IMG/VR virus record: IMGVR_UViG_3300046507_000900
Coordinates: 1 to 22,065 of that record
DNA length: 22,065 nt
Direction: 5' to 3' (one strand)
Source of the DNA: a virus
The notes under the pieces were generated by a model. That model was given only the letters and a program-made list of their open reading frames with translations, did no database searches and was not told the DNA's origin. A program made the position numbers and the translations under genes. This document shows, one piece after another, positions 2,817-18,437 of this stretch. Within the stretch, counting starts at the first letter, position 1. Each line of letters starts with the position of its first letter.

Positions 2817-3101
2817 TCACAGCGCCTTGGCCAGCGCCTTCACCTGTTCCCAGGCATGGACGTCGATACCGAGTTTGTCATAGACAGCCTTGATCTTGGC
2901 AGCTGCGTCTTCGAATGCATCGACGATAGCGGGCTCGACAACCTGCTCGACCGCAGGCACAACGGCCTCAATGGCCTCAATGGCCTCAATGGCCTCAATG
3001 GCCTCAATGGCCTCAATGGCCGTCTCGACGGCCTGAACAACTTCGGTCATTTCGGATTTTCCTTTGGTGAACTGGCTCTTGAGCCAGGCGATAACGTTCA
3101 T
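2817..3101 (-). CDS. Small helical protein with EAI tripeptide repeats
   Basis: A 94-residue protein of unknown function beginning MNVIAWLKSQFTKGKSEM. Residues about 29-46 consist of five perfect Glu-Ala-Ile repeats plus variants, encoded by a 9-bp tandem DNA repeat. The rest is Ala/Val/Glu-rich and predicted helical, ending WEQVKALAKAL. AAGGA precedes the ATG at suitable spacing. Rhizobial phages often carry short helical proteins of this style near the terminase genes. The gene leads the minus-strand tRNA-HNH-HNH-terS group. The repeat number may vary among relatives by slippage. Confidence 0.6.
   Translation of the reverse strand: MNVIAWLKSQFTKGKSEMTEVVQAVETAIEAIEAIEAIEAIEAIEAVVPAVEQVVEPAIVDAFEDAAAKIKAVYDKLGIDVHAWEQVKALAKAL
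2970..3014. repeat. 9-bp tandem repeat AATGGCCTC x5
   Basis: Five perfect head-to-tail copies of AATGGCCTC, flanked by a variant copy on the left (AACGGCCTC, 2961-2969) and a partial copy on the right. The unit is a multiple of three and encodes Glu-Ala-Ile on the minus strand, so gains or losses would keep the frame. Confidence 0.95.
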
Positions 3102-5734: not shown

Positions 5735-5843
5735 GGCGGCAGCTGAGATACCTCTTGGCGAGCAGGCGAAGGCAGGTGCTGCGGCGCCGCCCGCGGCCAC
5801 GCCGGCCAACGACAACAAAAACGATGGGGCAAACGCCGCATGA
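5735..5843 (+). pseudogene. Portal protein, C-terminal fragment
   Basis: A short reading frame ends exactly in an ATGA overlap with the prohead protease start, the usual portal-protease arrangement. The end reads VAAAEIPLGEQAKAGAAAPP, then ATPANDNKNDGANAA. An in-frame stop at 5577-5579 and unnatural sequence upstream show the bulk of the portal gene is missing. The identity rests on position and overlap, since this low-complexity tail is not diagnostic. Confidence 0.45.
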
Positions 5844-6484
5844 TCAAGATGGAAAAACGCGGCGGCACACTCGGTGTCGAGACGCGTGCAGAAGCAGATG
5901 CACGGACACTGGTTGGCTATGCCGCTGTGTTCAATAGCGACGCTGACATTGGCGGCTATTGGGTCGAGCGCATCATGCCTGGCGCCTTCACTGCATCGCT
6001 AAAGACGGCGGATGTCCGTGCATTGATCAATCACGACACGGGCCGAGTCATCGGTCGCGTGCAGGCAGGGACGTTACGCCTCGCCGAGGACGACAAGGGC
6101 CTGCGCGTTGAGATCGACGTGCCGAACACTACAGATGGCAACGACCTCTGGGAACTTGTCTCTCGTGGCGACATCAGCGGGATGTCATTTGGCTTCTGCG
6201 TAACCAACCAGTAGTGGGATGAAAGCGTGTCGCCAGCAGTTCGCACGATCATGGCGCTAGACCTCTATGAGGTGTCCGCTGTTGCGTTCCCGGCCTACGA
6301 TGACACAACGATCGGCAAGCGCTCCTTGGAGGAGTGGCGCTCGGCGCACCCGCCAGAGCAGCCAACCGCGGATCAATCCCACGAACAAACAATTCCCGAT
6401 CCGGCGGCAGCGCCGGTGAGCAAGGCCGCCCACCGAGCGCGCCTGAAGATGGACTTTGATCTGAAGGTCCGCACCACACGGTAA
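5840..6484 (+). pseudogene. HK97-type prohead protease with in-frame amber stop
   Basis: Serine protease (family S78) that would cleave the scaffold part of the capsid protein during head maturation. Seen: VGYAAVFNSDADIGGYWVER (25-44), His65 in ALINHDTGRVIGR, the Ser region in DISGMSFGF (111-119), and after the stop YEVSAVAFPAYDDT, which is the conserved end of the fold. TAG at 6212-6214 interrupts the same frame between NQ and WDESV, where homologues commonly have Gln or another polar residue; a CAG-to-TAG change explains it. Both parts remain in frame, so this is a single nonsense mutation in a ~214-residue gene. Amber suppression is possible but unsupported. Confidence 0.85.
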
Positions 6485-6521
6485 CGGCGCTGCCGAACCG
6501 CACCACCAAAACCACCACAGG

Positions 6522-6544
6522 CCCGCTTTCGCGGGTTTTTATTT
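6522..6544 (+). terminator. Rho-independent terminator between protease and capsid
   Basis: CCCGC-TTTC-GCGGG stem-loop followed by TTTTTATTT, 12 bases before the capsid ATG. It would act on transcripts from the protease gene. Confidence 0.85.
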
Positions 6545-6555
6545 GGGAAGAACAC

Positions 6556-6681
6556 ATGAAAATCTCTGAAATGCGCGAGAAGCAGCAGCGCCTCGTAGCC
6601 GAAGCACGTGCGCTCCGTGACGAAATCAAGGACGATACCGCAGAGGCGCGTGTTGCCGAAATCGACGCCGCTCATGACAAG
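6556..6681 (+). pseudogene. HK97-type major capsid protein, N-terminal fragment
   Basis: About 42 residues remain, starting MKISEMREKQQRLVAEARAL, the charged delta (scaffold) domain that the protease normally removes. After AEIDAAHDKA the frame runs into sequence that belongs to a tail gene read in another frame. The whole shell-forming part of the capsid protein is missing. The gap also removed the head-tail connectors, tail tube and tape measure that normally lie between capsid and tail tip genes. The ATG follows GGAAGA at good spacing. Confidence 0.75.
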
Positions 6682-6682
6682 G

Positions 6683-7090
6683 CTACTGGTCAACGGCACG
6701 TCAGACAGTGTCGATTTCACCGTCTCCGGTGTCGATCCTGCCACCGGCGGCAAGATGCTCGACAGCATCCCGGCAGTCCGCGGCGCTGCCGTTCAGATGG
6801 GCCTCACCACGCTCGACGACTACTTTCAGCCGATGAGCAACATCATTCCGATCTGGCAAGGCACGGCGTCACATGTCGGCGAGGCCAGTGAAGCGGCGCA
6901 AGGCGAGGATTCACCGACGCTGACGCTGAGCCTGTCCGTCTTGACGGGCGAGGCGACGCGGTCGCGGCCGTCACGCACCTTGTGGTCTGACGCGATGCAG
7001 AAAGCGCTGTCACCGACAGATGACTTCTGCGCGCAGGTCCAGCGCCTGGCGCGCGGCGTGCAGCCGGTCTGGCCCAAATACAGCAACTGA
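6683..7090 (+). pseudogene. Phage tail protein, C-terminal fragment
   Basis: About 135 residues in a different frame from the capsid fragment. They begin LLVNGTSDSVDFTVSGVDP and continue to LARGVQPVWPKYSN. The fragment is directly upstream of an NlpC/P60-like gene, the position of the GTA gene 13 / DUF2163-type tail-tip protein in related phages. I recognise the type and position rather than a named family. The natural N-terminus was lost in the deletion joined at about 6682, so it has no proper start and is probably not translated except as an out-of-frame product. Confidence 0.6.
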
Positions 7091-7116
7091 TTTTTGCCGC
7101 AAGGCGACGAGGCTCC

Positions 7117-7524
7117 ATGACATTGCGAGAGTTTTTGGCTCTGCCGCATCGTTTTCGATGGGGCGGGGTAGGCGGCGACGACTGCACGACCTTTTGCGCT
7201 TCGTGGATTGAGGAATTCACTGGCATTGACCCTATCGCCAGACTCCGCGGCACGTACTCGACAGGTGACGGTGCCGCGAGGCTCATTGCCGAGGCTGGAG
7301 GCCTTATCGCGCTCGCCGCAGGGCGCATCGAGCCGCTCGGATGGCGCCTAACCGATTCACCTGCCGACGGCGATGTCGGTGTGATCCTCGCTCCGTCTGG
7401 GCTCGATCAAGACGTCAAACAAATCGCCGCCGTCCGTTTCGGCCCACTGTGGGCGACACTCGGGCCGCGCGGTGTCGTCGCGAAGAAGGCCGACTTTGTC
7501 GCCGCCTGGAGGCTTTCGATTTGA
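7117..7524 (+). CDS. Tail-tip NlpC/P60-like cysteine peptidase (DUF6950-type)
   Basis: A 135-residue protein probably acting as the tail-associated cell-wall hydrolase or its structural relative, like gene 14 of the alphaproteobacterial gene transfer agent. Residues 12-29 (FRWGGVGGDDCTTFCASW) contain the catalytic-type Cys in a D-C-T context. A possible downstream partner segment is GDVGVILAPS at 87-96. The gene is intact and starts at an ATG 26 bp after the preceding tail fragment. Its TGA overlaps the next gene's TTG start (TTGA), showing translational coupling. Confidence 0.75.
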   Translation: MTLREFLALPHRFRWGGVGGDDCTTFCASWIEEFTGIDPIARLRGTYSTGDGAARLIAEAGGLIALAAGRIEPLGWRLTDSPADGDVGVILAPSGLDQDVKQIAAVRFGPLWATLGPRGVVAKKADFVAAWRLSI

Positions 7525-9733
7525 GGAACGATCGCTTCTATGAGCAGGCATACGCCCTGCCGTTTCAGCGCGCGCTGTGGGAAGCGACGTTACGCAACAC
7601 CACGCAGCACTACCCAATCGCGCGGCGCGACCCGATCTTTACGCCGCTTTTCACGTCATTTTTCACCTCACTGGGTTTTGGCGCGACGGCAGCTGGTATC
7701 GCAGGCAGCTTGACGACTGCGATTGTCACAACGGCAATCACGGTTGGCATACAGATGCTCAACCAGCCCAAGCCGCCGAAGCCAGAAGACGGCAAGGCCC
7801 CAAAGACACAGGCGTTCCATTCCGCATTTGGGGCGTTGGGCGCACGAGGCTCGCCGGATCCTACATGCTCTGGGAGTCAACCGGGAACAAGCTTTATGCC
7901 GTCCAGGCCATAGCCGGCCACCGCATCAAGGCGGTCAATCGCTACTGGCTGCACGATGACGAAGTTACGATCGATGGGTCGGGCGTTACAACAAACGATG
8001 ACGACGGCCGCTACGGCAACAACGTTACGATCCTGTCTCGCCTCGGCGCCGCGACGGAGACGCCATATGCGCAGCTCGTAGCAGATCTCGGCGGGGAGGG
8101 CATATGGACCAACAATCACCGCGGCGACGGCCAAGCCTCGCTGGCGATGATCGCTAAATCGGTTGCTCAGAAGAACCAGCAGACGCGCTTTCCATATGGC
8201 GTGCCGTCGCTCTCTGTCGAAGCCGACCTGACTTACTGCTGGGATTATCGAGATCCCGCGCAAAGCCCCACAAACCCGGCGACATGGACATGGACCCGCA
8301 ATAGCGCGCTCGTTCTCTGCTGGCACGAGTGCTTCAATGAATTCGGTGAGCGGCGCGACTATCGCAAGGCCATTTTACCCGTTCTCGATATGTGGGTCGA
8401 AGAGGCAAACATCTGCGATGAGGATGTGCCTCTCGCGGGCGGCGGCACTGAGAAGCGTTACGAGTGCAACGGCTGGGACACTACGGAAAATAGCCCGAAG
8501 GTCGGCACGAACGCCATTCTTGCCAGCTGCGACGGCTGGATGTGCGAGCGCGGCGACGGGGCGCTTCTGCTCACGGTCGGCAAGTTCCGTGAGACGCGCG
8601 TCGCGACGCTCACCGACGCCGACATCATCGGCCGGCAGATTCAGTATGACGTGCTTTTTGAGGATGAGTGCAACCGCCTTATTCCGAAGTTCACGTATCC
8701 GGCGACAGCCTTCTCGACCTGCGACACCGATTATTTCGAGGACACGGCTGCCCAACTTGCGGCGGGTCGCGTCCTCGCGCAGGACGGCGATTACGGCTGG
8801 GTGCATCAATGGCGGCAGGCCCGCCGGCTCGGAAAGCGCGACTGGCTGCGTATTCAGCAGAAGGTCAAAGGGTCGATCGACGTTCGCCTTTCGGGCATCA
8901 ATGCGATTTATAGCCGCTGGATCCGCCTGAGCACGCCGAACCAGTTGCCACGCCTGAACGGCAAGCTTATCGAAAATCGCCGCGCGGTACTCGCCCTCAC
9001 CAAGGGCGGCTTCAGCATGGAAATTGCCTTGCATCCCGACAATATCGACGACTGGAACCCGGCCGTCGATGAAGGCATGCAGCCTCCCGTTCCGGAAGCA
9101 CCGAATGCCGACGGGATAGTGACGCCTGTTATCAACCTCGTGCAGGCGCAGGCGGGCAACGGCACGGTCTATATCCGCGTCATCATCATTGACCCGGCAG
9201 ACGACAGCCTGACGCCAGTCGTGCGCTATCGCGTGCAGGACATCGGCAGCGGTGTCGTCGGCGCATGGGTGGAACAACAGTTCCCTGATGCGCCGCCGTC
9301 CGGTGGCTTTATCAATCTGAACACGAATCCGGTGCCGACCGATCAGGTTCTTGATGTTGAGGCTGCCTTCATTGGGTCTAACGATTCCTATTCGGACTGG
9401 TCACCGATCACGAGCGTGACGTCGACGTCGGATCCAACGCCGCCTGGCGTGGTTACTGCCGTCTCGGTTGCCGGCGGCTCTGGCCAGGCGACCTTCAATT
9501 GGACAGCCCCGAACAGCCAGAACTATGCCGGCGCTCGGCTCTATTGGAACACAGTCAATAATTTTGCCACGGCAACAGCCGTGAGCCCACCGGAATACGG
9601 TGCGCCAGGCGCGGCAGATGCGCGTCTCGTGACAGGCATATCAGCCGGAACGCGATATGGCTGGGTCGTGGCAATCAACCGCTCTGGAATAGCGGCGACC
9701 GAAGTCGCCACAGGCGCATTCACGGTCAGCTGA
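7521..9733 (+). CDS. Tail hub / host-specificity protein, frame-disrupted
   Basis: Large tail-tip protein comparable in position to GTA gene 15 or lambda J. The start is TTG at 7521, with GGAGG eight bases upstream and overlap with the peptidase stop. The first ~95 residues include a hydrophobic stretch (FGATAAGIAGSLTTAIVTTA) and a KPPKPEDGKAPK linker. The protein then continues in the -1 frame with FRIWGVGRTRLAGSYMLWES. The last ~100 residues (about 9430-9730) form a fibronectin type III domain (SGQATFNWTAP). The shift lies at 7799-7820. A one-base deletion after KTQA fits a decayed gene, but CCCAAAG at 7799-7805 is also a correctly phased -1 slippery heptamer. The ATG at 7577 in the long frame is not the true start. 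Confidence 0.75.
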
Positions 9734-9794: not shown

Positions 9795-12514
9795 ATGGCG
9801 AAGAGCCCTCTTGAAATCTGGCAGGACGGCCCGGCTGCACAGCCATATCAGCCGCCTAAGCAGGATATCCGCGATTGGGCGCTGTGGGTGGAAGGCCTGC
9901 TCGATCCTGATGCCACAGGCACTGGTGTCGATTTCGCCACGGATCTGACCGCGCTTGATAATTCGCTGAACGGCCACCTCGGCAATCACAACAACCCGCA
10001 TCAGGTCACCAAGGCACAGATCGGGCTTGGAAACGTCGACAATACGGCGGATATCGACAAGCCAGTATCGACGGCGCAGTCGCTTGCGATAGGCGTTGAG
10101 CACGATCTCTTGGCCTGCCGCCCTGGTGATATGCCTCATCACTTCGTCGATGTGCTTGACGGCGGCGATCCTTCGATCCTGCAGAAGCTAGCGCTTGGCC
10201 AGGAGGCTTCAGGAGATGCTGGTTTCGTGCGCCGGATTGCGGGTGCGGGCATCATTGCCAGGCGCACGCTCTTTGCTATCGAGCCAGGCAAGGTTTATTC
10301 TGCTACTTTCGTGGTGCAGCGTCGAACGAACACGACAGACCCGTCTAACGACGCCGCGCGTTGCGCGCTGGCTTGGTACAATCAGGCAACTGCGCCGGCC
10401 GCCACTGCTCAAACTGTCATTCAGGATCTTTTGACACTGACGGTCGGGTCTGGCCGAACCCTGGTTACCGCAACAATCGCGCGTGCGACCGGCGAGGGGA
10501 TCTCCGTCATAGCGCCCGCTGATGCCCGCTATGTTCGCCCGTTCATTCAACTCTATGGCACGACTTCCGTGACCGACGTTGAGCTGATAGATTGGGGAGA
10601 CGTCACGCATGCGAACGGCTATTCGCCGAATCTTGATGCATTGACTGGACGCGTCGGCGCCCTGGAATCGATTGATGCAGGTAATCGCATTACGGCGCTC
10701 GAGGCGGAAGTCTCGGCGCCCAATACCATACGACTTGCTATGGTTGCGGATCTGGCTGCCATGACGGTTCCAACAACCGTGGATACTGTAGAGATGCAGG
10801 GTTACCATCGTGCCGGCGATGGCGGCGCGATGATGTTGCTTCGGCTTTCTGCTCTCGACGCAATCCAGCCAGGCGAGCAGACTTCAAACGGCGGAACGGT
10901 GCGTTGGGGTATCGCAACTGGGCAGGAAATCCGGCCGGAAATGTTCGGCGCGCTTGCGGATTATACGGTCGGCGGAAGCGGGACAGATAGCACGGCAGCT
11001 TTTCAGAAGGCTGTCGATTACTGCGATGCCGTAGGAATTGGAGAATTGCGCCTTCGGCCAAGCCAGGGTGCCGCCTTCCTGATCACCGCGACCGTCACGG
11101 CGGCAGCTCTTATGCTCGTGGGCACGTTCGGCGCGAAGGTCGTATTCAAGGATATGAACGGCCTGGTTGGCTTTGATAACACCGGGGCGACCAGCGTCGG
11201 AAAGACCATCGGCGCGAGGAATGTTGAATTTATTGTCGAGGGCGCGAACATCGCCTCCGCCGTCAAGGAACCGAAGCAAGACGATCAATACCTGACCTAC
11301 TACACGGCCTATCGTTTCGAAGGCAACTACTGCCATGGTGCCAACAGAGACGCAGCGAAATATTCTTTCGCTTGGGATTAAGGTGCGAGTGCCTGGCTTC
11401 AGATCGGCGATTGCGTGGGCTGCAATGTCATCGGCAACAAAATCCAAGGTGCTTTCGATATTCAGGCAGATCCCGCGGGGCAGTGAACGATCGAGCGCTC
11501 TTCCTCGATGCGGCCGGCGCCGTGATGTCCGCGCGTGTTTCCCACAACGAGATTGGCCCGATTTGGCGCGGCGTTGAAATTGGCGATCGCGCGTTCATGT
11601 CCATGCATGATTGCGACTTGATCGGCACATATGATGGTATCGTATGGGCTGGCACGACGATGTTCAATGAGCCCAAGGTCCGCAACAACAACATCAACGC
11701 GCAGCGCTGGGGGATCGCAGTTGATGGCCCTGACAGTCTAGAATTTACCGACAATACGATTCGGCGACACTCCGCTGGCTGGAAAGGCGCGACCAACGAT
11801 TGGTTCGGAATGAAGATTGCCAACGTGGCCGATCTGAAGCTTTCGAACAACACGGTCCAACCAGACGAAAGCGGCGGCGCGTTCAGCGGCACGATGACGG
11901 CATATAGCCTCACCGCCTGTTCGCTTGCCCTCGCGACTGACAATTTTGTTGGGGTTGGCAACGATGTCGGCTTCCTGCTCGACAATTGCACCGGGCTCAT
12001 CGTCGATGGCACACTCAGTGCTCAAAGCAATGCGGGTAACGTTTTGTTCAGCTTGGTAAACAATACCCGGCTGACCACGATCGCAGCCTACGAACTGGTT
12101 TCGACTTTCGCAGGAACCGTTCTGACAAAGGATGCTTCGATTATCGGCACAATCCAGATGCTTAACAAGCAGTTCGATCTGGAAAGCACGGGAAACGTCA
12201 ACCTCGACATGACACGTGTAAACGCGGCTGCCGACGAGAAAAAATGGCGGACCGTCGTCGGTTCTAATTCCCGCAATCTCCAGGTGCTTACCGACGCTGG
12301 CGCCGGGACGAATTATGAGTTGATCACTCGATCCGGTGCGAGCGTAACGCAGATGGAGTGGCGAGCCACGTTGTTCAAGCTGACGGGTTTCCTCAGCGTC
12401 GGAACGCTGGCGAACCTTCCCAATTTCACCGATGACACAGCAGCCGCCGCCGGTGGGGTCGTAGTCGGGCAATTCTACAGGACAGGATCGGCCCTAAAGG
12501 TAAGAATCGTGTAG
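9795..12514 (+). pseudogene. Tail spike, pectate-lyase beta-helix type, nonsense plus frameshift
   Basis: Receptor-binding spike of about 906 residues if repaired. The N-terminus (MAKSPLEIWQDGP) is followed at about 57-93 by the fibre collar motif NPHQVTKAQIGLGNVDNTAD. FGALADYTVGGSGTDSTAAF near 394-413 marks the start of a right-handed beta-helix, whose remaining rungs (VRNNNINAQRWGIAVDGPDS and others) lie in the second frame. Two lesions are visible. TAA at 11379-11381 falls in SFAWD-stop-GASAWLQIGD (CAA to TAA fits). The frame then continues until TGA at 11484, where restoring one base gives ADPAGQ-VNDRALFLDAAG. Such spikes often bind or cleave host capsule or O-antigen. The collar fragment of about 528 residues could still be made. 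Confidence 0.85.
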
Positions 12515-12520
12515 GGTTTA

Positions 12521-12805
12521 TTAGTACAATCCGCTCCAGAACGGATCCTCTTCTTCCCCAAGGATCGGCGCACGCTCTGGCGAGAACTTTTCCTGGGTAA
12601 GTTGCATGTAGCCGGATACCATGCATGCAACTATACCTACCGCGCACATGATCAAAGATGCGGGAGTTGAGAGCCCTACACAATAGGCAGGTATCCCCAC
12701 GGCCAGGGATGACAAGCCTGTGGCTAAAATGAAGCGCTTTCTCTTCCAACGCTTCAGGAACGCAATGACTTCCGGCATAGAAAGTTCGGTGTGGTGTCTT
12801 CTCAT
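12521..12805 (-). CDS. Small two-span membrane protein in the capsule cassette
   Basis: A 94-residue protein with two predicted membrane spans at about 25-45 (FILATGLSSLAVGIPAYCVG) and 49-69 (ASLIMCAVGIVACMVSGYMQ). The N-terminus is basic (MRRHHTEL; LKRWKRKR) and the C-terminal tail acidic (LGEEEDPFW). It begins 12 bp after the glycosyltransferase stop on the same strand, so it is probably the last gene of that transcript, and it ends six bases from the spike stop codon. It may anchor or regulate the polysaccharide machinery. No family was recognised, and the ribosome site is weak. Confidence 0.6.
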   Translation of the reverse strand: MRRHHTELSMPEVIAFLKRWKRKRFILATGLSSLAVGIPAYCVGLSTPASLIMCAVGIVACMVSGYMQLTQEKFSPERAPILGEEEDPFWSGLY

Positions 12806-12817
12806 TCTGGACGATGC

Positions 12818-15259
12818 CTATTCCGTAATTTGGTATTCGTTACGACCGATAAACAAAGCTAGCCAGGGGAACCGCATAGTACGAAGCCGCATCTTCGCCC
12901 GCTTATTGTGCGGTAACAAGCGGCAGAACTCGCGCAACTGGCCGACAGCTTCACCCCTTCTTCCTTCTCTGAGGAGGGACTCTGCAGCACATCTCAGTAG
13001 ATTCGTAGCAGCGGGGTTGGCCTTGTAAGCTCGGATGAACAGGGCTGAAGATTTTGCATAATTGCCGAGACGAAAATCTTTCCTCGCCCAATCCTCGAGT
13101 CTGTGCCAGTCGGGACCTTGCGGAGCAGAGTTGCTTTCGGATTCCGGAACGGGTGCGATTCTCGACGCGGCATAGCTCGACCACGAGAAGGGCAGGGTTG
13201 TTTTAAGACGGCCCAACTCGATCGAATGCTCCTTCCATCGAAACTGCGTGATGGCGATATCCCTATACCCGTGCGATCGCCTCTCAGCGTGCTCACGCAC
13301 ATCGTCGACCGCTGAGAAGAATGAGTATTTTCGATATAGGAACCACGCAGCCAGTCGCTCAACTGTAGCGGTTTGAGGAGTCGGCACGTCGCCTGCCAGG
13401 AATGCAGTGATGCCGGCTGCTGCCGAGCTGGCGCGATGACCGATGCCCGACAGGTTATAGAAGGCATTGCCGAGCGTTACGGTCGGGGTTTGATGGAGCA
13501 GCGAAAGAAGGCCCACACCTGAGTTGTAGCAGAGGGTCAGATCCGCCACGTCCAGAAGGAAATGAACATTATCCGACCTATCGGCCACGATGAGGTTCGG
13601 CCGCGGTCTGATCGGATCTCGCTTGGACAGCGGATGCGGTTTCACAATGAAAATCATGTCCTGGTGACGGTCGACCAAGTCAGGAAGATTATCGACGAAG
13701 TCCGAATAGGACTGCTCGCCCTTGACGAACATGGTGACAGCCATGTCTTCTTCGAGCTGCAGCGGCACGAAGCAAATTTTCTTGTTGGCGTGCTTCAGCC
13801 CCAAATGCGTGGCCTCAGTCGCCTGGTAGCTATCCATGCTTTCGAGGGTTTGGTTGCCCCGCCTGAGATCCTGAATATAGATCGACGCACAGCTGAGTTC
13901 ACTGGCGGTAAAGCTCGCGGCCTCGAACGCAGGTTGCTCGAACGCCTCAGAATTGTAGCAGACGTCTTCGTTATAGTAGATGCTCGCAGGCAGCGCGCCG
14001 CGCTCGATCACGATCAAGTCACGTCCAAGGTCGCGGGCCGTCACCATGAGGCTGCTGAACGCCGCCTGGCTGGTCATATACGGATTGAACACAGCGAGTG
14101 CGTCAACGTCACCGTCGACCAGTCCTTTTGCCGCGGCGGCAAGCGCCTCCTGGTCATCCGAGAATATCGGCAGGAGTTCGAATCCGGCGAGCCGAAGGGG
14201 TGAAAAATAGCCCCACGTTTCTCGGTTTTTGCAGATACAATATGCTCGACGTCGGCGCTCTAGGTGATCGACACCGAGCAATTCATGCGGCTTTTCGACG
14301 TATACCGACGTGGACTTTTGAAATTGCTCGCGCTTCCAATCGTTGTTCGTATACCAATCCGCCTTCCTATTCCTCTCGTGCCACAGATGGAAAACCTTGA
14401 AGCCAAGGGACTCCGTTGGCTGCGACATCAGCTCGAACAATCGGCGAAATCCCGCATAAGGTCTCGACGTGAAAAATTCCGGGCTTAAGGGGCCGTAGAG
14501 ATCACTGGCCGGCGTCGTAGGCGTAGGGAGGTAGGTCGCATGCATCGACAGGCGAAGAAGGAATTCAAAATCTTCTGACCCGTGCCCTCGGAAATTTGTG
14601 TCATATCCGCCGACGAGCGAGAACATCGATCTGTGTATGAGAAACACGTTGGAATAGGGCGCTATGAAGGATTCTTCTGCACGGTCGAATTTCGAATAGT
14701 TGAGTTTCCAGCCAAGTGATCGGAGGTGCGACGACTTGGCGTCGTTGCTTTTCTTTTGGAAGAAACCGTCTGTGTCCGAACGCGAAAGGTGGTACGCGGG
14801 AATATTGAGCACGACGTCGATCGTGCGGCGCATGTCGAGAGCTGTAGCTGTTTCAGCAAGCCGCTCGAACATGTCGCGCTCTCCGAAAAAGTCGGGATCG
14901 CAGAAGAAAATGAACTCGGATTTTGAGTTCTCGAAGCCTATGTTCCGTGACATCGAGAGGGAGAAGACATCGAAGTCGGGAACAGGTACCAGCGTATAGC
15001 CGCGTCGGGTGCAGACGTCGGCAATCTTTGCCGAGAACTCCTCGTCAGATCCGAAATCAACAATAACGACGCGCGGGCAGGGATTGTAGTATTCGCCCAT
15101 CAAATCGATGCGGTCGAGCAGCCATAAATTTTCGGCATGGATCCGAACGCTTAAAACCATCGTTATATCGCTGGCTGTCACGTCATCGCCCGGGAATATC
15201 GGAGAGCCTATTTCAACAGTTTCTGATGTTGAAAGGTTATGGATCGGCAAAGCTTCCAT
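12818..15259 (-). CDS. Glycosyltransferase fused to KpsS/KpsC-like capsule domain
   Basis: An 813-residue multidomain enzyme for surface polysaccharide. Residues about 28-330 resemble a GT-A (family 2) transferase. They contain ITMVLSVRIHAEN, a DxD motif in FFCDPDFF (about 120) and GGYDTNFRGHGSEDFEFLLR (about 218-237), the acceptor and catalytic ED region found in capsule polymerases. Residues about 470-620 resemble the KpsS/KpsC (Capsule_synth) domain: FVPLQLEED, FIVKPHPLS, CYNSGVGLLSLL. The last ~110 residues are helical and TPR-like (WARKDFRLGNYAKSSALFI). I chose the ATG at 15259 because GGAAGGAAG precedes it; an ATG six codons upstream lacks a site. The frame is intact. It is divergent from the methyltransferase gene. 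Confidence 0.8.
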   Translation of the reverse strand: MEALPIHNLSTSETVEIGSPIFPGDDVTASDITMVLSVRIHAENLWLLDRIDLMGEYYNPCPRVVIVDFGSDEEFSAKIADVCTRRGYTLVPVPDFDVFSLSMSRNIGFENSKSEFIFFCDPDFFGERDMFERLAETATALDMRRTIDVVLNIPAYHLSRSDTDGFFQKKSNDAKSSHLRSLGWKLNYSKFDRAEESFIAPYSNVFLIHRSMFSLVGGYDTNFRGHGSEDFEFLLRLSMHATYLPTPTTPASDLYGPLSPEFFTSRPYAGFRRLFELMSQPTESLGFKVFHLWHERNRKADWYTNNDWKREQFQKSTSVYVEKPHELLGVDHLERRRRAYCICKNRETWGYFSPLRLAGFELLPIFSDDQEALAAAAKGLVDGDVDALAVFNPYMTSQAAFSSLMVTARDLGRDLIVIERGALPASIYYNEDVCYNSEAFEQPAFEAASFTASELSCASIYIQDLRRGNQTLESMDSYQATEATHLGLKHANKKICFVPLQLEEDMAVTMFVKGEQSYSDFVDNLPDLVDRHQDMIFIVKPHPLSKRDPIRPRPNLIVADRSDNVHFLLDVADLTLCYNSGVGLLSLLHQTPTVTLGNAFYNLSGIGHRASSAAAGITAFLAGDVPTPQTATVERLAAWFLYRKYSFFSAVDDVREHAERRSHGYRDIAITQFRWKEHSIELGRLKTTLPFSWSSYAASRIAPVPESESNSAPQGPDWHRLEDWARKDFRLGNYAKSSALFIRAYKANPAATNLLRCAAESLLREGRRGEAVGQLREFCRLLPHNKRAKMRLRTMRFPWLALFIGRNEYQITE

Positions 15260-15419
15260 CAGCTCTTCCTTCCGCATTGATTGAAAAAAGTTTTATGACA
15301 GCCTCCGGCTTTTATCTACCCATACGAGAAAGGGCAACGGGAAACGTGTAAATTCCGCTTGCAAGTTTTCGACATTCGGTCTTGATGCGGACCACTAGGC
15401 GAACGGGGTTTTGCAGTTT

Positions 15420-16115
15420 ATGGCGATGGAAACAGTCGAGCACTTCGGAATTAGTTTGGATATCGATCCGGCCTACATGTCGGAAAACATGATCGAGGTG
15501 TTACGGGCCAAGCGGTACGAAACGACCGAAGCGAAGCAGCTTCAGCGACTCATCCAGGCTAACGAAGTCGTGCTGGAGATCGGGGCCGGGATCGGATTCA
15601 TTTCGGCGTTAATCACCAAGAACCCGCTGACGCGTAGGGTTGTTTCCTACGAGGCCAACCCTGCTCTGATCGATGGCATTTCCACCACCGTTCGAAGGAA
15701 CACCGGAGATGACGCCGCAAAGTGGGAAATAAGAAACGCCGTCTTGATGACCGGCGATATTCCTGAAGCCATGGACTTCTACGTTCATCAGGATTTTTGG
15801 GCATCTTCTTTGACCCCAATTCCTGACGCGAAGGAAGTGGCGCGCGTGGCAGTGCAAAACTTCAACGCGGTGTTGGCCGAAATTCGACCCACTCTCATCG
15901 TCTGCGATATCGAGGGTGGGGAGATGGATCTGTTCAAGAACGCGGATCTAAGCGGCGTGAAAAAGGTCTACATGGAAATTCATCAACGCAAGGTTGGACG
16001 GAATGCCATACGGGAGCTGTTTGGCTATTTCCACGCTAGGGACTTCCATTACGATCAAGCTCACTCGGCCGGCGCCGTCGTGCTGTTTTCACACGTCGAT
16101 CGCGACAAGCGGTAG
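15420..16115 (+). CDS. FkbM-family methyltransferase
   Basis: A SAM-dependent methyltransferase of ~231 residues, probably methylating a sugar hydroxyl in a surface polysaccharide. Motif I is VVLEIGAGIGFISAL (about 50-64), the acidic ribose-binding segment is VVSYEANPALI, then LIVCDIEGGEMDLF (about 155-168) and VYMEIHQRKVG, the usual FkbM pattern. It starts at an ATG (15420) after GGGG; a TTG three codons earlier is also possible. It reads opposite to the flanking cassette genes, and its stop is only five bases from the permease stop. A 160-bp divergent gap to the glycosyltransferase should hold promoters for both. Confidence 0.8.
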   Translation: MAMETVEHFGISLDIDPAYMSENMIEVLRAKRYETTEAKQLQRLIQANEVVLEIGAGIGFISALITKNPLTRRVVSYEANPALIDGISTTVRRNTGDDAAKWEIRNAVLMTGDIPEAMDFYVHQDFWASSLTPIPDAKEVARVAVQNFNAVLAEIRPTLIVCDIEGGEMDLFKNADLSGVKKVYMEIHQRKVGRNAIRELFGYFHARDFHYDQAHSAGAVVLFSHVDRDKR

Positions 16116-16120
16116 ATCGC

Positions 16121-16906
16121 CTATCGCAACGCCCTGCCTCTCCACAATCGCTCAAGACCCAAGCCCAAGAACAAGATCGCGATTGTGAACCAGACTATGT
16201 ACGAAATTGAGATCAAATGCGTGGGGTAGGAGGGATAGAAGCCCGTTCTAAACAGCGAGACGAACTGCATCATTGGACTATAAACGAGAAAGCGCCTGAG
16301 TTGCGGAGGCATGTATTCTGGTATGAAGAACACTCCGCTGTAGAATATCTGGCAACGTGATATCGCCGACCAAAGGAACTTCCACAGTGGGAAGAGGGCG
16401 ATGAAGTAAGCATTCAATAACCCGAATCCGAATGCCGTCAGAGTTAGGCAGGTGAGTGATATTATTATCGGTTCAAAATTATAGGGAATAGCGAACCGGG
16501 AGAGGCCGAAGATATTGATGCCGGCCAAAAAAGCAGCGAATAATAATATAAACGATATTACTTCAATGCCAGCCCTGGCAATCGCACAATCCAGCGGTTG
16601 AATGTAAGGTATTGTCATCAAATGAGTTGATGATGCAATTGCTCCCGCTGTTCTTATACTTATAGAACGAAAATAGAGTACGGGCGCAACCCCGGTTGTG
16701 AGGAAGATCAACAAGCTGTCACCGATGATCAGGTGTCGGCCCATGAACGTAAATATTATGAAATGAACGACAATATAAAACAGGGCTTCAAGCAGATCGA
16801 ACAGGTGTGAGAACGCATGCTTGCTGTTCCGCAGGCGGATTTCTCGAATGAGAAGCGCGGTGATGACGCGACTTTGGCGCTGAAGTCCGATGCTTATAGT
16901 TTCCAC
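16121..16906 (-). CDS. ABC-2 type polysaccharide export permease (KpsM-like)
   Basis: A 261-residue inner-membrane protein with about six hydrophobic spans, of the KpsM/BexB class that exports capsular polysaccharide. It has the N-terminal ALLIREIRLRNSKHAFSHL (the amphipathic R-E-x-R-x-R segment) and the late YSGVFFIPEYMPPQLRRFLV followed by SPMMQFVSLFRTGFYP, both characteristic of the family. The start is GTG at 16906. No ATP-binding partner (KpsT) lies in the window, so it would need one elsewhere. AT content is clearly higher than in the phage genes, a sign of horizontal transfer. It is 24 bp after the zinc-ribbon gene on the same strand, probably one operon. Confidence 0.85.
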   Translation of the reverse strand: METISIGLQRQSRVITALLIREIRLRNSKHAFSHLFDLLEALFYIVVHFIIFTFMGRHLIIGDSLLIFLTTGVAPVLYFRSISIRTAGAIASSTHLMTIPYIQPLDCAIARAGIEVISFILLFAAFLAGINIFGLSRFAIPYNFEPIIISLTCLTLTAFGFGLLNAYFIALFPLWKFLWSAISRCQIFYSGVFFIPEYMPPQLRRFLVYSPMMQFVSLFRTGFYPSYPTHLISISYIVWFTIAILFLGLGLERLWRGRALR

Positions 16907-16930
16907 GGATCAAATTCCACTAATTATCAC

Positions 16931-17146
16931 TCAAATAACAATTCCGTCGTTTCTCAGCATGCCGCCGCAGGATCGGCAGTATCGAAGGGATCTCGGGTGT
17001 TTCTTGCCGCAAGCGATGCAGATTTTGCTGCGGTCAAATGCATCTTTTCTGAACAGCCGAACGGTCAATATAAAAAGCAAAACAATAAACGGCACCGCGG
17101 TTATCAATGAAAACACTATGGCGGCCCAGGAATCGGCATCAAGCAT
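16931..17146 (-). CDS. Small membrane protein with C-terminal zinc ribbon
   Basis: A 71-residue protein with one membrane span (AAIVFSLITAVPFIVLLFIL, about 8-28). A cytoplasmic zinc ribbon follows, with CIAC near 43-46 and CRSC near 57-60. GAGAGG sits a few bases before the ATG. It is the first gene of the two-gene unit with the export permease and shares its AT-richness. The role is unknown; it may be an assembly or regulatory factor for the transporter. The zinc-ribbon call is from Cys spacing only. Confidence 0.65.
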   Translation of the reverse strand: MLDADSWAAIVFSLITAVPFIVLLFILTVRLFRKDAFDRSKICIACGKKHPRSLRYCRSCGGMLRNDGIVI

Positions 17147-17258: not shown

Positions 17259-17471
17259 ATGCAACTCATCCCCGACGTTCGCCGGGTGCTTTCGCGCGCT
17301 TGGTCGCTGCGGCTAATGGAGCTCGCCGCACTCGCCGACATCGTCATCAACGTTGTGCCGGCCACCGCCGATTACCTGCCGTGGTGGCTCACGCTCGCGC
17401 TGCTAGCCGGCGCGTGGGCGGCCCGTCTCGTGGCGCAACCTGAAAAGGAACAAGCCAATGCCAATCAATAA
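17259..17471 (+). CDS. Putative holin
   Basis: A 70-residue protein with two hydrophobic segments (about 18-37, SLRLMELAALADIVINVVPA; and 41-60, WWLTLALLAGAWAARLV) and a short polar tail. It precedes and overlaps the endolysin gene by 14 bp, the classic holin position. A good AAAGGGAAAA ribosome site precedes the ATG. It would form inner-membrane lesions that trigger endolysin action. The assignment rests on size, topology and position. Confidence 0.65.
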   Translation: MQLIPDVRRVLSRAWSLRLMELAALADIVINVVPATADYLPWWLTLALLAGAWAARLVAQPEKEQANANQ

Positions 17472-18072
17472 AATCCGGCCGAGCAAACGCGCGGCCGCTG
17501 CCATTGCTGCTGCGCTCGTGGCGGCCGCTGCCGGCGGATGGCACGCGGTAAGCGACACTTCCGCCACGGTCCACCCGCCGGCCGTCATCCTCGCGCAGAA
17601 GGCGCTGATCGAGACATGGGAAGGCGAGGTGCTGACGGCACATTGGGATCCGTACGCGAAGATCTACGACATCTGCTACGGCAAGACGCGCCTAAACGGC
17701 AAGCCAATCACCAAAGGCATGCACTTCACCAAACAGCAGTGCGCCGACTTCTTGGAAGACGACCTCTACAACGGCTATTACGTGCCGCTCACGAAGAAGG
17801 TGCCGGCGTACACCGGCTTCCCGGTCAGCGTTCAGGCATCGCAGCTTTCCGGCGCATATAACTTCGGCGTTGGCGGCATGGTCGGTTCAAAGGCCATGGA
17901 TTTCGCCAAGCGCGGCCAGTGGCGCGCGGCGTGCGAGGCGCAGACCGCGTGGAACAAGGCCGGCGGCCACGTTGTGCCCGGCATCGTCAATCGCCGCGAG
18001 ATGGGCGACGCGCAGCGCATCGGTGAAGCTGAGCTCTGCGTTTCTGGCCTGCCGGATGGAGGCGCGTTATGA
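17458..18072 (+). CDS. GH24 endolysin (lysozyme), SAR-type N-terminus
   Basis: A muramidase of 204 residues that cleaves peptidoglycan at lysis. The first ~36 residues are basic and then Ala/Gly-rich and weakly hydrophobic, as in signal-arrest-release endolysins. The active site region is WEGEVLTAHWDPYAKIYDIC at about 54-73. Glu55 and Asp64 are spaced as in T4/P21-type lysozymes (nine apart). The position usually held by the catalytic Thr (WT or PT before VCYG) appears to be Asp71. Later conserved segments are FTKQQCADFLEDDL and GAYNFGVG. The TGA overlaps the i-spanin ATG (ATGA). Confidence 0.9.
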   Translation: MPINKIRPSKRAAAAIAAALVAAAAGGWHAVSDTSATVHPPAVILAQKALIETWEGEVLTAHWDPYAKIYDICYGKTRLNGKPITKGMHFTKQQCADFLEDDLYNGYYVPLTKKVPAYTGFPVSVQASQLSGAYNFGVGGMVGSKAMDFAKRGQWRAACEAQTAWNKAGGHVVPGIVNRREMGDAQRIGEAELCVSGLPDGGAL

Positions 18073-18437
18073 GCATGTTAGCTACGCCCGGCGGCCGGTT
18101 TCTGGCTGGCCTACTCGTCGCGCTGCTGCTTTCGGTCGGCGCCTACGTCTACGGCGACCACCGTGGCTACGCGCGGGCGGCCACGACATATACGGCACAG
18201 ATTGCGCAGCAACAGGCCGACCTTGCGACGGCCCGCGCGGCCGAGATCGAGCGACAGACCGCCGTGAACGACGCGGCCAAGGCTGCCGAAGCCAGAGGCA
18301 TCGCAAAGATGCAGGCGGACAACCAATCCCTTCAAGATCAAATTCAGGAGCTGCAGCGTGAAGCTGATCAAGACCCTGGCGCTGATAAGCCTGCTCTTGG
18401 CTCTTCCAGCGTGCAGCGCGTCAACAAAATTCGCTAG
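18069..18437 (+). CDS. i-spanin (Rz-like)
   Basis: A 122-residue inner-membrane spanin component that, with the lipoprotein partner, fuses inner and outer membranes at the end of lysis. It has a single N-terminal span (about 10-30, GRFLAGLLVALLLSVGAYVY) followed by an Ala/Gln/Glu-rich periplasmic coiled coil (AQIAQQQADLATARAAEIER and onward). It starts within the endolysin stop and contains the start of the o-spanin gene in another frame, the hallmark Rz/Rz1 arrangement. Confidence 0.85.
   Translation: MSMLATPGGRFLAGLLVALLLSVGAYVYGDHRGYARAATTYTAQIAQQQADLATARAAEIERQTAVNDAAKAAEARGIAKMQADNQSLQDQIQELQREADQDPGADKPALGSSSVQRVNKIR

Follow-up and report, generated by a model that had tools for sequence, protein, structure and literature searches.

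We analysed the 22,065-bp virus record IMGVR_UViG_3300046507_000900 of IMG/VR, taken complete (hereafter the window), a prophage that carries five capsule-type genes at positions 12,521 to 17,146 (the block). Our results suggest that this block is a K-antigen conversion cassette, lodged in a variable cargo slot that this rhizobial prophage family keeps between its tail spike and lysis genes, and that this slot and the K-antigen loci of host bacteria repeatedly exchange genes; we hold this reading to be probable, with moderate confidence. A sequence-only reading of the window had placed five open genes exactly between tail spike and holin, which is confirmed by the open reading frames (ORFs), the Pfam and PHROGs assignments and a match to KpsM. 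Its proposal of a surface-polysaccharide cassette carried as prophage cargo is also supported, as cargo of K-antigen type, with two corrections: the cassette is not self-sufficient, as it comes without KpsT, KpsE, KpsD and KpsS, and the phage is now defective.

On the phage strand, the modules follow the order gpJ (phrog_5616), tail spike, block, holin, GH24 endolysin and Rz-like gene, and the five ORFs lie directly between the spike, which ends at 12514, and the holin, which starts at 17259. Four of the five genes are opposed to the phage genes, the FkbM gene alone being co-oriented with them, and the GC content of the block (0.48-0.56) is below that of the phage genes (about 0.60). The block and its two neighbours are as follows.

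12521..12805, minus strand: two-span membrane protein, 94 amino acids (aa), two hydrophobic spans
12818..15277, minus strand: bifunctional capsule glycosyltransferase (GT), 819 aa; Glyco_tranf_2_2 PF10111, E 3e-64, and Capsule_synth PF05159, E 4e-10
15411..16115, plus strand: FkbM-family methyltransferase; PF05050, 24.9 bits, narrowly above the cut-off of 22.7
16121..16906, minus strand: KpsM/RkpT-like ABC-2 capsule permease; match to KpsM 8tsh
16931..17146, minus strand: zinc-ribbon protein, 71 aa, single span, accessory; CxxC...CxxC and one hydrophobic span
9795..12514, plus strand: tail spike, broken; Pfam/PHROGs
17259..18437, plus strand: lysis cassette of holin, GH24 endolysin and Rz-like gene; DUF7940 / PHROG 1356, PF00959 and PHROGs lysis, an Rz-like homologue standing at the matching place in related prophages

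The 819-aa GT is made of a GT-A domain (residues about 30-336), a KpsC-like GT-B domain (about 340-696) and C-terminal helical repeats. In an AlphaFold2 model built from 21 sequences (mean confidence, pLDDT, 87.5), the GT-B part matched the KpsC β-Kdo (3-deoxy-D-manno-octulosonic acid) transferase 6mgb (Z 20.7, 3.2 Å, 276 residues, 15% identity; VIA-align) and the Kdo domain of WbbB (Z about 15.6). The GT-A part matched LARGE1 and heparosan synthase (Z about 18), and a wider span also matched chondroitin polymerase. Residues D511, H548-P549 and S586-G587 are conserved, and the motifs QLxxDMAV and KxHPL are retained in nearly all homologues of the enzyme. A profile comparison (E 2e-8) aligned D511 to the Asp of the GQVExDAS motif of KpsS/RkpZ-type proteins, and D511 is most likely the counterpart of the KpsC nucleophile D160, an equivalence that depends on a profile alignment. 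An ERG motif (residues 425-427), considered as the place of a lost KpsC catalytic Asp, was dropped since the profile alignment puts this Asp at the conserved D511. The enzyme therefore has the fold, the nucleophile Asp and the HP motif of a KpsC-type domain, and its GT-B domain is predicted to be a putative β-Kdo/ulosonic-acid transferase. An open frame of 819 codons together with conserved catalytic motifs indicates that this is not a chance product. The K polysaccharide of Sinorhizobium meliloti 1021 is a Kdo homopolymer (PMC5539429), which by analogy fits with a Kdo-type transferase. Like the KpsC/WbbB β-Kdo GTs and the bifunctional polymerases K4CP and PmHS2, the window GT brings such domains together, here KpsC-like and GT-A in one chain, whereas its sequence identity to these enzymes is 12-18% and no equivalence of donor or linkage is implied.

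The same gene pair was observed in an unrelated phage, L148 (IMGVR_UViG_3300048853_000015), whose gpJ is distant (32%) and whose spike is different. Its slot holds a GT (56%) and an FkbM gene (67%), divergent as in the window and followed by small lysis-type genes. The search of other prophages that the sequence-only reading had suggested thus recovered the pair with its divergent order and its slot position unchanged, and also brought out a different KpsM-permease cassette in L026/L060. The GT and FkbM genes also stand, with KpsM, KpsT, KpsE, KpsD and KpsS, in the complete host K-antigen loci L070 (Rhizobium nepotum) and L079 (R. mongolense), where the FkbM partner is 65-67% identical and divergent from the GT in every case. 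Among 395 Rhizobiaceae-family genomes, a count that includes the genome at the sample centre, picked for having the pair, the GT was found in three and FkbM at 60% identity or more in one; since the pair is so rare, its co-occurrence in L148 and in the window is not due to chance. None of KpsT, KpsE, KpsD and KpsS was found in the phage slots tested, indicating that the phage copies are enzyme modules dependent on a resident exporter. In a tree of the GT, phage copies are interleaved with host copies, at least three changes being forced by supported branches. GT and permease had no match among 50,697 deposited phages, and searching viral contigs for close relatives of the GT and of the permease alone gave nothing; the phage relatives of the cassette were recovered via an alignment of homologues and via FkbM.

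Two further GT loci were set aside. In L076 (Shinella), what looked like phage genes near the GT proved to be partition genes of a plasmid and one small membrane gene, so that the locus is not counted as prophage. In L150 the GT, accompanied by an insertion sequence fragment, lies beyond an integrase at the end of a contig and may be host flank, and it is not taken as a slot case. At a prophage end of Paracoccus caeni (L091, 9602-14004), a frameshifted GT and an acetyltransferase stand after the endolysin rather than before it. Separately, a small, conjugative IncX5 plasmid of Citrobacter freundii (L066, 8697-20249) carries a KpsM-type permease, an ABC (ATP-binding cassette) ATPase, a GT of the family (36%), an acetyltransferase and capsule export genes, apparently a near-complete mobile capsule locus.

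To see this cassette within its family, related prophages were collected by a gpJ search that gave 62 loci, 45 of which (some redundant) had spike and lysis gene within the fetched DNA. The spike-to-lysis interval ranges from empty up to about 7.7 kb past the spike, and its content varies from phage to phage. The interval is a variable slot for cargo, and surface-glycan genes are prominent in it: in a matched Pfam scan of the larger slot ORFs, surface-glycan families accounted for 18 of 51, about one third, against 3 of 32 ORFs past the lysis genes (Fisher p 0.007; generic methyltransferases were excluded and the classes chosen post hoc, the statistic being descriptive). Slot contents assigned by Pfam are listed below.

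L002, L011, L030, L058: acyltransferase-3; also in L055, with SGNH
L003, L022: RgpF
L017/L019: WcbI and FkbM
L050: FkbM
L061: MBOAT
L031: GT2
L033: PMT-type GT
L027, 15077-20086: GT cluster with a 1,013-aa GT2+GT1 protein, a GSCFA protein and a MUCI70-type GT
L026/L060: two fused GTs with sialyltransferase-type domains and an ABC-2/KpsM permease, then an endolysin-like gene

The L026/L060 slot, found entire in L146 (3798-11313) and in L147, contains CST-I/GT8 and GT4/GT29 fusions and an alpha/beta hydrolase, and its KpsM permease is 51% identical to the rkp-3 permeases. The block thus shares two features with moron loci: its surface-glycan genes lie outside the conserved phage gene set, being absent or different in relatives, and such genes recur as cargo in independent phages (L148, L151, L026/L060). 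Past the lysis module of L026/L060, L041, L059 and others, genes for an ATP-dependent DNA ligase, SRAP and a trypsin-like protease are recurrent.

A link between slot and host came from L151 (IMGVR_UViG_2937036028_000014), a prophage of the same family as the window (gpJ 66%), whose slot reads two-span protein, GT, methyltransferase-like gene, calcium-binding protein and then GH108 endolysin. The L151 GT and the GT of the S. meliloti K-antigen region on pSymB are 84% identical in amino acids and 80% in nucleotides over 2,550 bp. Beside the S. meliloti GT lies a broken GH108 endolysin, 78% identical in nucleotides over 886 bp to that of L151, and in L151 a 178-bp relic of the S. meliloti acetyltransferase (85%) is found at the matching place. 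The three matches are in the same order, and the 12 best S. meliloti/medicae records all show those of GT and endolysin in collinear arrangement. In S. meliloti 1021, the decayed lysis cassette (L068, 7846-9446; about 618.3-619.9 kb of the record) consists of a frameshifted GH108 endolysin, an Rz-like gene and a small phage membrane gene, beside the acetyltransferase and the GT. Further strains of S. meliloti/medicae, as well as L075/L077, also have endolysin relics. The ratio of nonsynonymous to synonymous substitution rates (dN/dS) between L151 and host GT copies is 0.09-0.16, indicating that the GT enzyme was kept functional; an attempt at the same ratio for the window genes met saturated synonymous sites.

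The pSymB phage relic speaks for a phage-to-plasmid transfer in that one case. Host K loci without endolysin also carry similar sets, calcium-binding/acetyltransferase/GT or methyltransferase/acetyltransferase/GT (L158; L073), so that exchange between slot and host K-antigen loci probably goes both ways, as judged from these gene arrangements. The pSymB acetyltransferase (CatB-type) and GT are probably SMb20804 and SMb20805, an assignment we infer as the 1021 record is unannotated, and these two genes were reported to affect K polysaccharide (PMC5539429). A wider proposal, which we put forward tentatively and would not yet bet on, is that the slot acts as a standing shuttle for rhizobial capsule diversity, in which spike-adjacent K-antigen polymerase cassettes would be left in the host capsule region upon prophage decay or recombination; the acetyltransferase and GT of pSymB in strain 1021 may then be a prophage deposit.

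The window permease had no Pfam match and is homologous to KpsM over its full length, residues 21-268 of the solved KpsM 8tsh being matched at E 4.5e-15 (phmmer). Its identity to permeases of other genomes that stand in capsule-type loci is 51-59%, and its nearest relatives (52-59%) occur in 9 of the 395 family genomes. Four permease loci were examined closely, and these mostly have KpsE-, KpsT-, KpsS- or KpsD-like genes, L134 being without them. In L134 (9555-10391), an orphan permease of the window subtype (59%) has no KpsT or KpsE nearby and is followed by a GT gene. In the window, no homologue of KpsT, KpsE, KpsD or KpsS was detected at E<=0.01. The permease therefore has no cognate KpsT ATPase in its locus, and of a complete ABC-dependent (group 2) capsule locus the block holds permease and GT only; it is not classed as such a locus, and export would need host machinery. 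For the zinc-ribbon and two-span proteins, no family was found in Pfam or PHROGs and no match in plasmids; the positional counterparts of the 94-aa protein are the spike-adjacent two-span proteins of L151 (114 aa) and L060 (122 aa).

The window prophage is cryptic and defective. Its decayed head/tail module is given here.

5840..9733, plus strand: protease, capsid/minor-tail fusion, NlpC/P60-type protein and gpJ (phrog_5616, E 1.5e-174)

An in-frame TAG (6212-6214) interrupts the protease, whose frame continues past it, and at about 6684 the start of the capsid gene is joined to the middle of a minor-tail gene, at residue ~66 of its 199-aa product. The genes for capsid, head-tail and tape-measure proteins are thus deleted; in relatives such as L003, that minor-tail protein is directly preceded by further tail genes, among them the tape measure (1,149 aa). 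Further lesions are a frameshift in gpJ at about 7790-7817 and, in the spike, an in-frame TAA at 11379-11381, after which the frame is open, and a frameshift near 11480. Sequencing error could explain single lesions but not the deletion. The block is free of lesions: its five genes, about 1,480 codons together, are open, and so are the lysis genes. Since the phage is defective, it cannot at present spread the cassette genes on its own.

If expressed, the 819-aa enzyme would act as a two-domain polymerase (GT-A plus KpsC-like Kdo-type transferase) that builds or extends K polysaccharide, and a lysogen may make an altered or additional K polysaccharide by means of this phage GT. FkbM would methylate the K polysaccharide, and the phage KpsM-type permease would export the polymer by coupling to a host KpsT ATPase and a KpsE/KpsD conduit, a partner that we assume. 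The altered capsule could then change the phage receptor on the lysogen. Replacement of rkp-3 genes in S. meliloti was accompanied by an altered K antigen and by resistance to local phages (PMC5429615), which makes such a receptor change plausible. Several points weigh against this K-antigen conversion. The record is complete virus-only DNA, so that no bacterial flank can be read and the host capsule machinery is out of view, and the prophage itself is cryptic. Identity of the window permease to RkpT-type permeases of rhizobia reaches only 24-33%; since a permease is missing beside the GT in L148 and L151, its role is not conserved with that of the GT. In the S. meliloti region, phage relics lie on one side only.

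Some of these points would suit a cassette that modifies or blocks the host capsule, the orphan permease competing with the resident KpsM, or GT and FkbM decorating or capping the polymer, with less phage adsorption as the outcome. The missing exporter genes, the permease-free GTs of L148 and L151, the many same-slot genes of relatives that are pure modifiers (acyltransferases, methyltransferases, WcbI) and the fact that FkbM could serve as cap or decoration all speak in its favour. However, both active sites of the GT, a two-domain enzyme of polymerase type, are conserved, and on our assignment of the gene its relative in S. meliloti seems to influence K-antigen production (PMC5539429); we consider a mere modifier unlikely. 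Somewhat less likely still is that the cassette is leftover cargo of a dead prophage, with no present function. The structural genes do bear at least five lesions or deletions, but the five cassette genes have remained open with intact catalytic residues; the chance of a lesion-free cassette is roughly 2-8%, which is weak evidence, the lysis genes being open too.

The sequence-only reading had itself raised the case of an ordinary chromosomal capsule locus around which phage genes had come to lie by rearrangement. This is not what we found, although GT, FkbM and KpsM-like genes are related to genes of ordinary capsule loci and the GC content of the block is unlike that of the phage genes. Joining of a host capsule locus to phage genes by rearrangement or misassembly would hardly account for the same pair, orientation and slot in the unrelated phage L148, nor for the S. 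meliloti-type GT in the L151 slot and another permease cassette in that of L060. Moreover, phage genes lie on both sides of the block in the normal order gpJ-spike-block-holin-endolysin-Rz, and we regard such a joining as very improbable.

Prophage capsule conversion is already known for Wzy-type capsules; the K-antigen cassette described here appears to extend it to the ABC-exporter (K-antigen) pathway and to plant-associated bacteria. In Acinetobacter baumannii, prophage Wzy polymerases located near the tailspike depolymerase change the capsule of the lysogen (PMC13228068, PMC9241936). The window resembles them in having a putative prophage capsule polymerase near a tailspike, but those systems are Wzy-dependent, with a membrane polymerase and a determined capsule structure, whereas the window has a two-domain GT and a permease of the ABC-exporter pathway, recognized from sequence. 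Serotype-converting phages of Shigella and Pseudomonas aeruginosa likewise carry morons that remodel the surface glycan after lysogeny (PMC3851460, PMC4815439); there the O antigen is modified, whereas in the window the genes are for synthesis and export of K antigen. Another rhizobial prophage with a predicted glycosyltransferase, in its case for lipopolysaccharide, is Phi3LM21 of Sinorhizobium sp. LM21, but it has a single GT and no capsule cassette, and neither the slot nor an exchange with K loci was described (PMC5537653). The rkp-3 region of S. meliloti pSymB has a GT of the same family as that of the window (48-50%) with an orphan KpsM permease, rkpT2, near it, and its likeness to L151 extends to the collinear phage endolysin remnant. 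Unlike the window, it is a plasmid capsule region with its own KpsT/E, in which an acetyltransferase replaces FkbM and phage genes are only relics.

In the literature searched, we found neither a spike-adjacent slot that has K-antigen genes in common with capsule loci of rhizobia nor a relic of phage lysis genes within rkp-3 reported, which is weak evidence as subscription papers were mostly unsearchable. The slot offers a testable vehicle for the natural rkp-3 replacement linked to phage resistance (PMC5429615, where prophages are unmentioned), and its position beside the spike could enable a phage to alter the receptor used by its own spike. In rhizobia, the K antigen is relevant to symbiosis as well, and to how sensitive the cells are to plant nodule-specific cysteine-rich (NCR) peptides (PMC5539429).

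Elsewhere in the window, a minus-strand tRNA-Met (CAT) at 2733-2809, flanked by HNH-type and repeat-encoding genes, may be phage-borne or the relic of an attachment site, and a 94-aa ORF at 2817-3101, likewise on the minus strand, contains a run of EAI tripeptide repeats. At positions 1-951, the N-terminal part of an integrase-like gene runs into unrelated sequence, either a sign of decay or the edge of the record.

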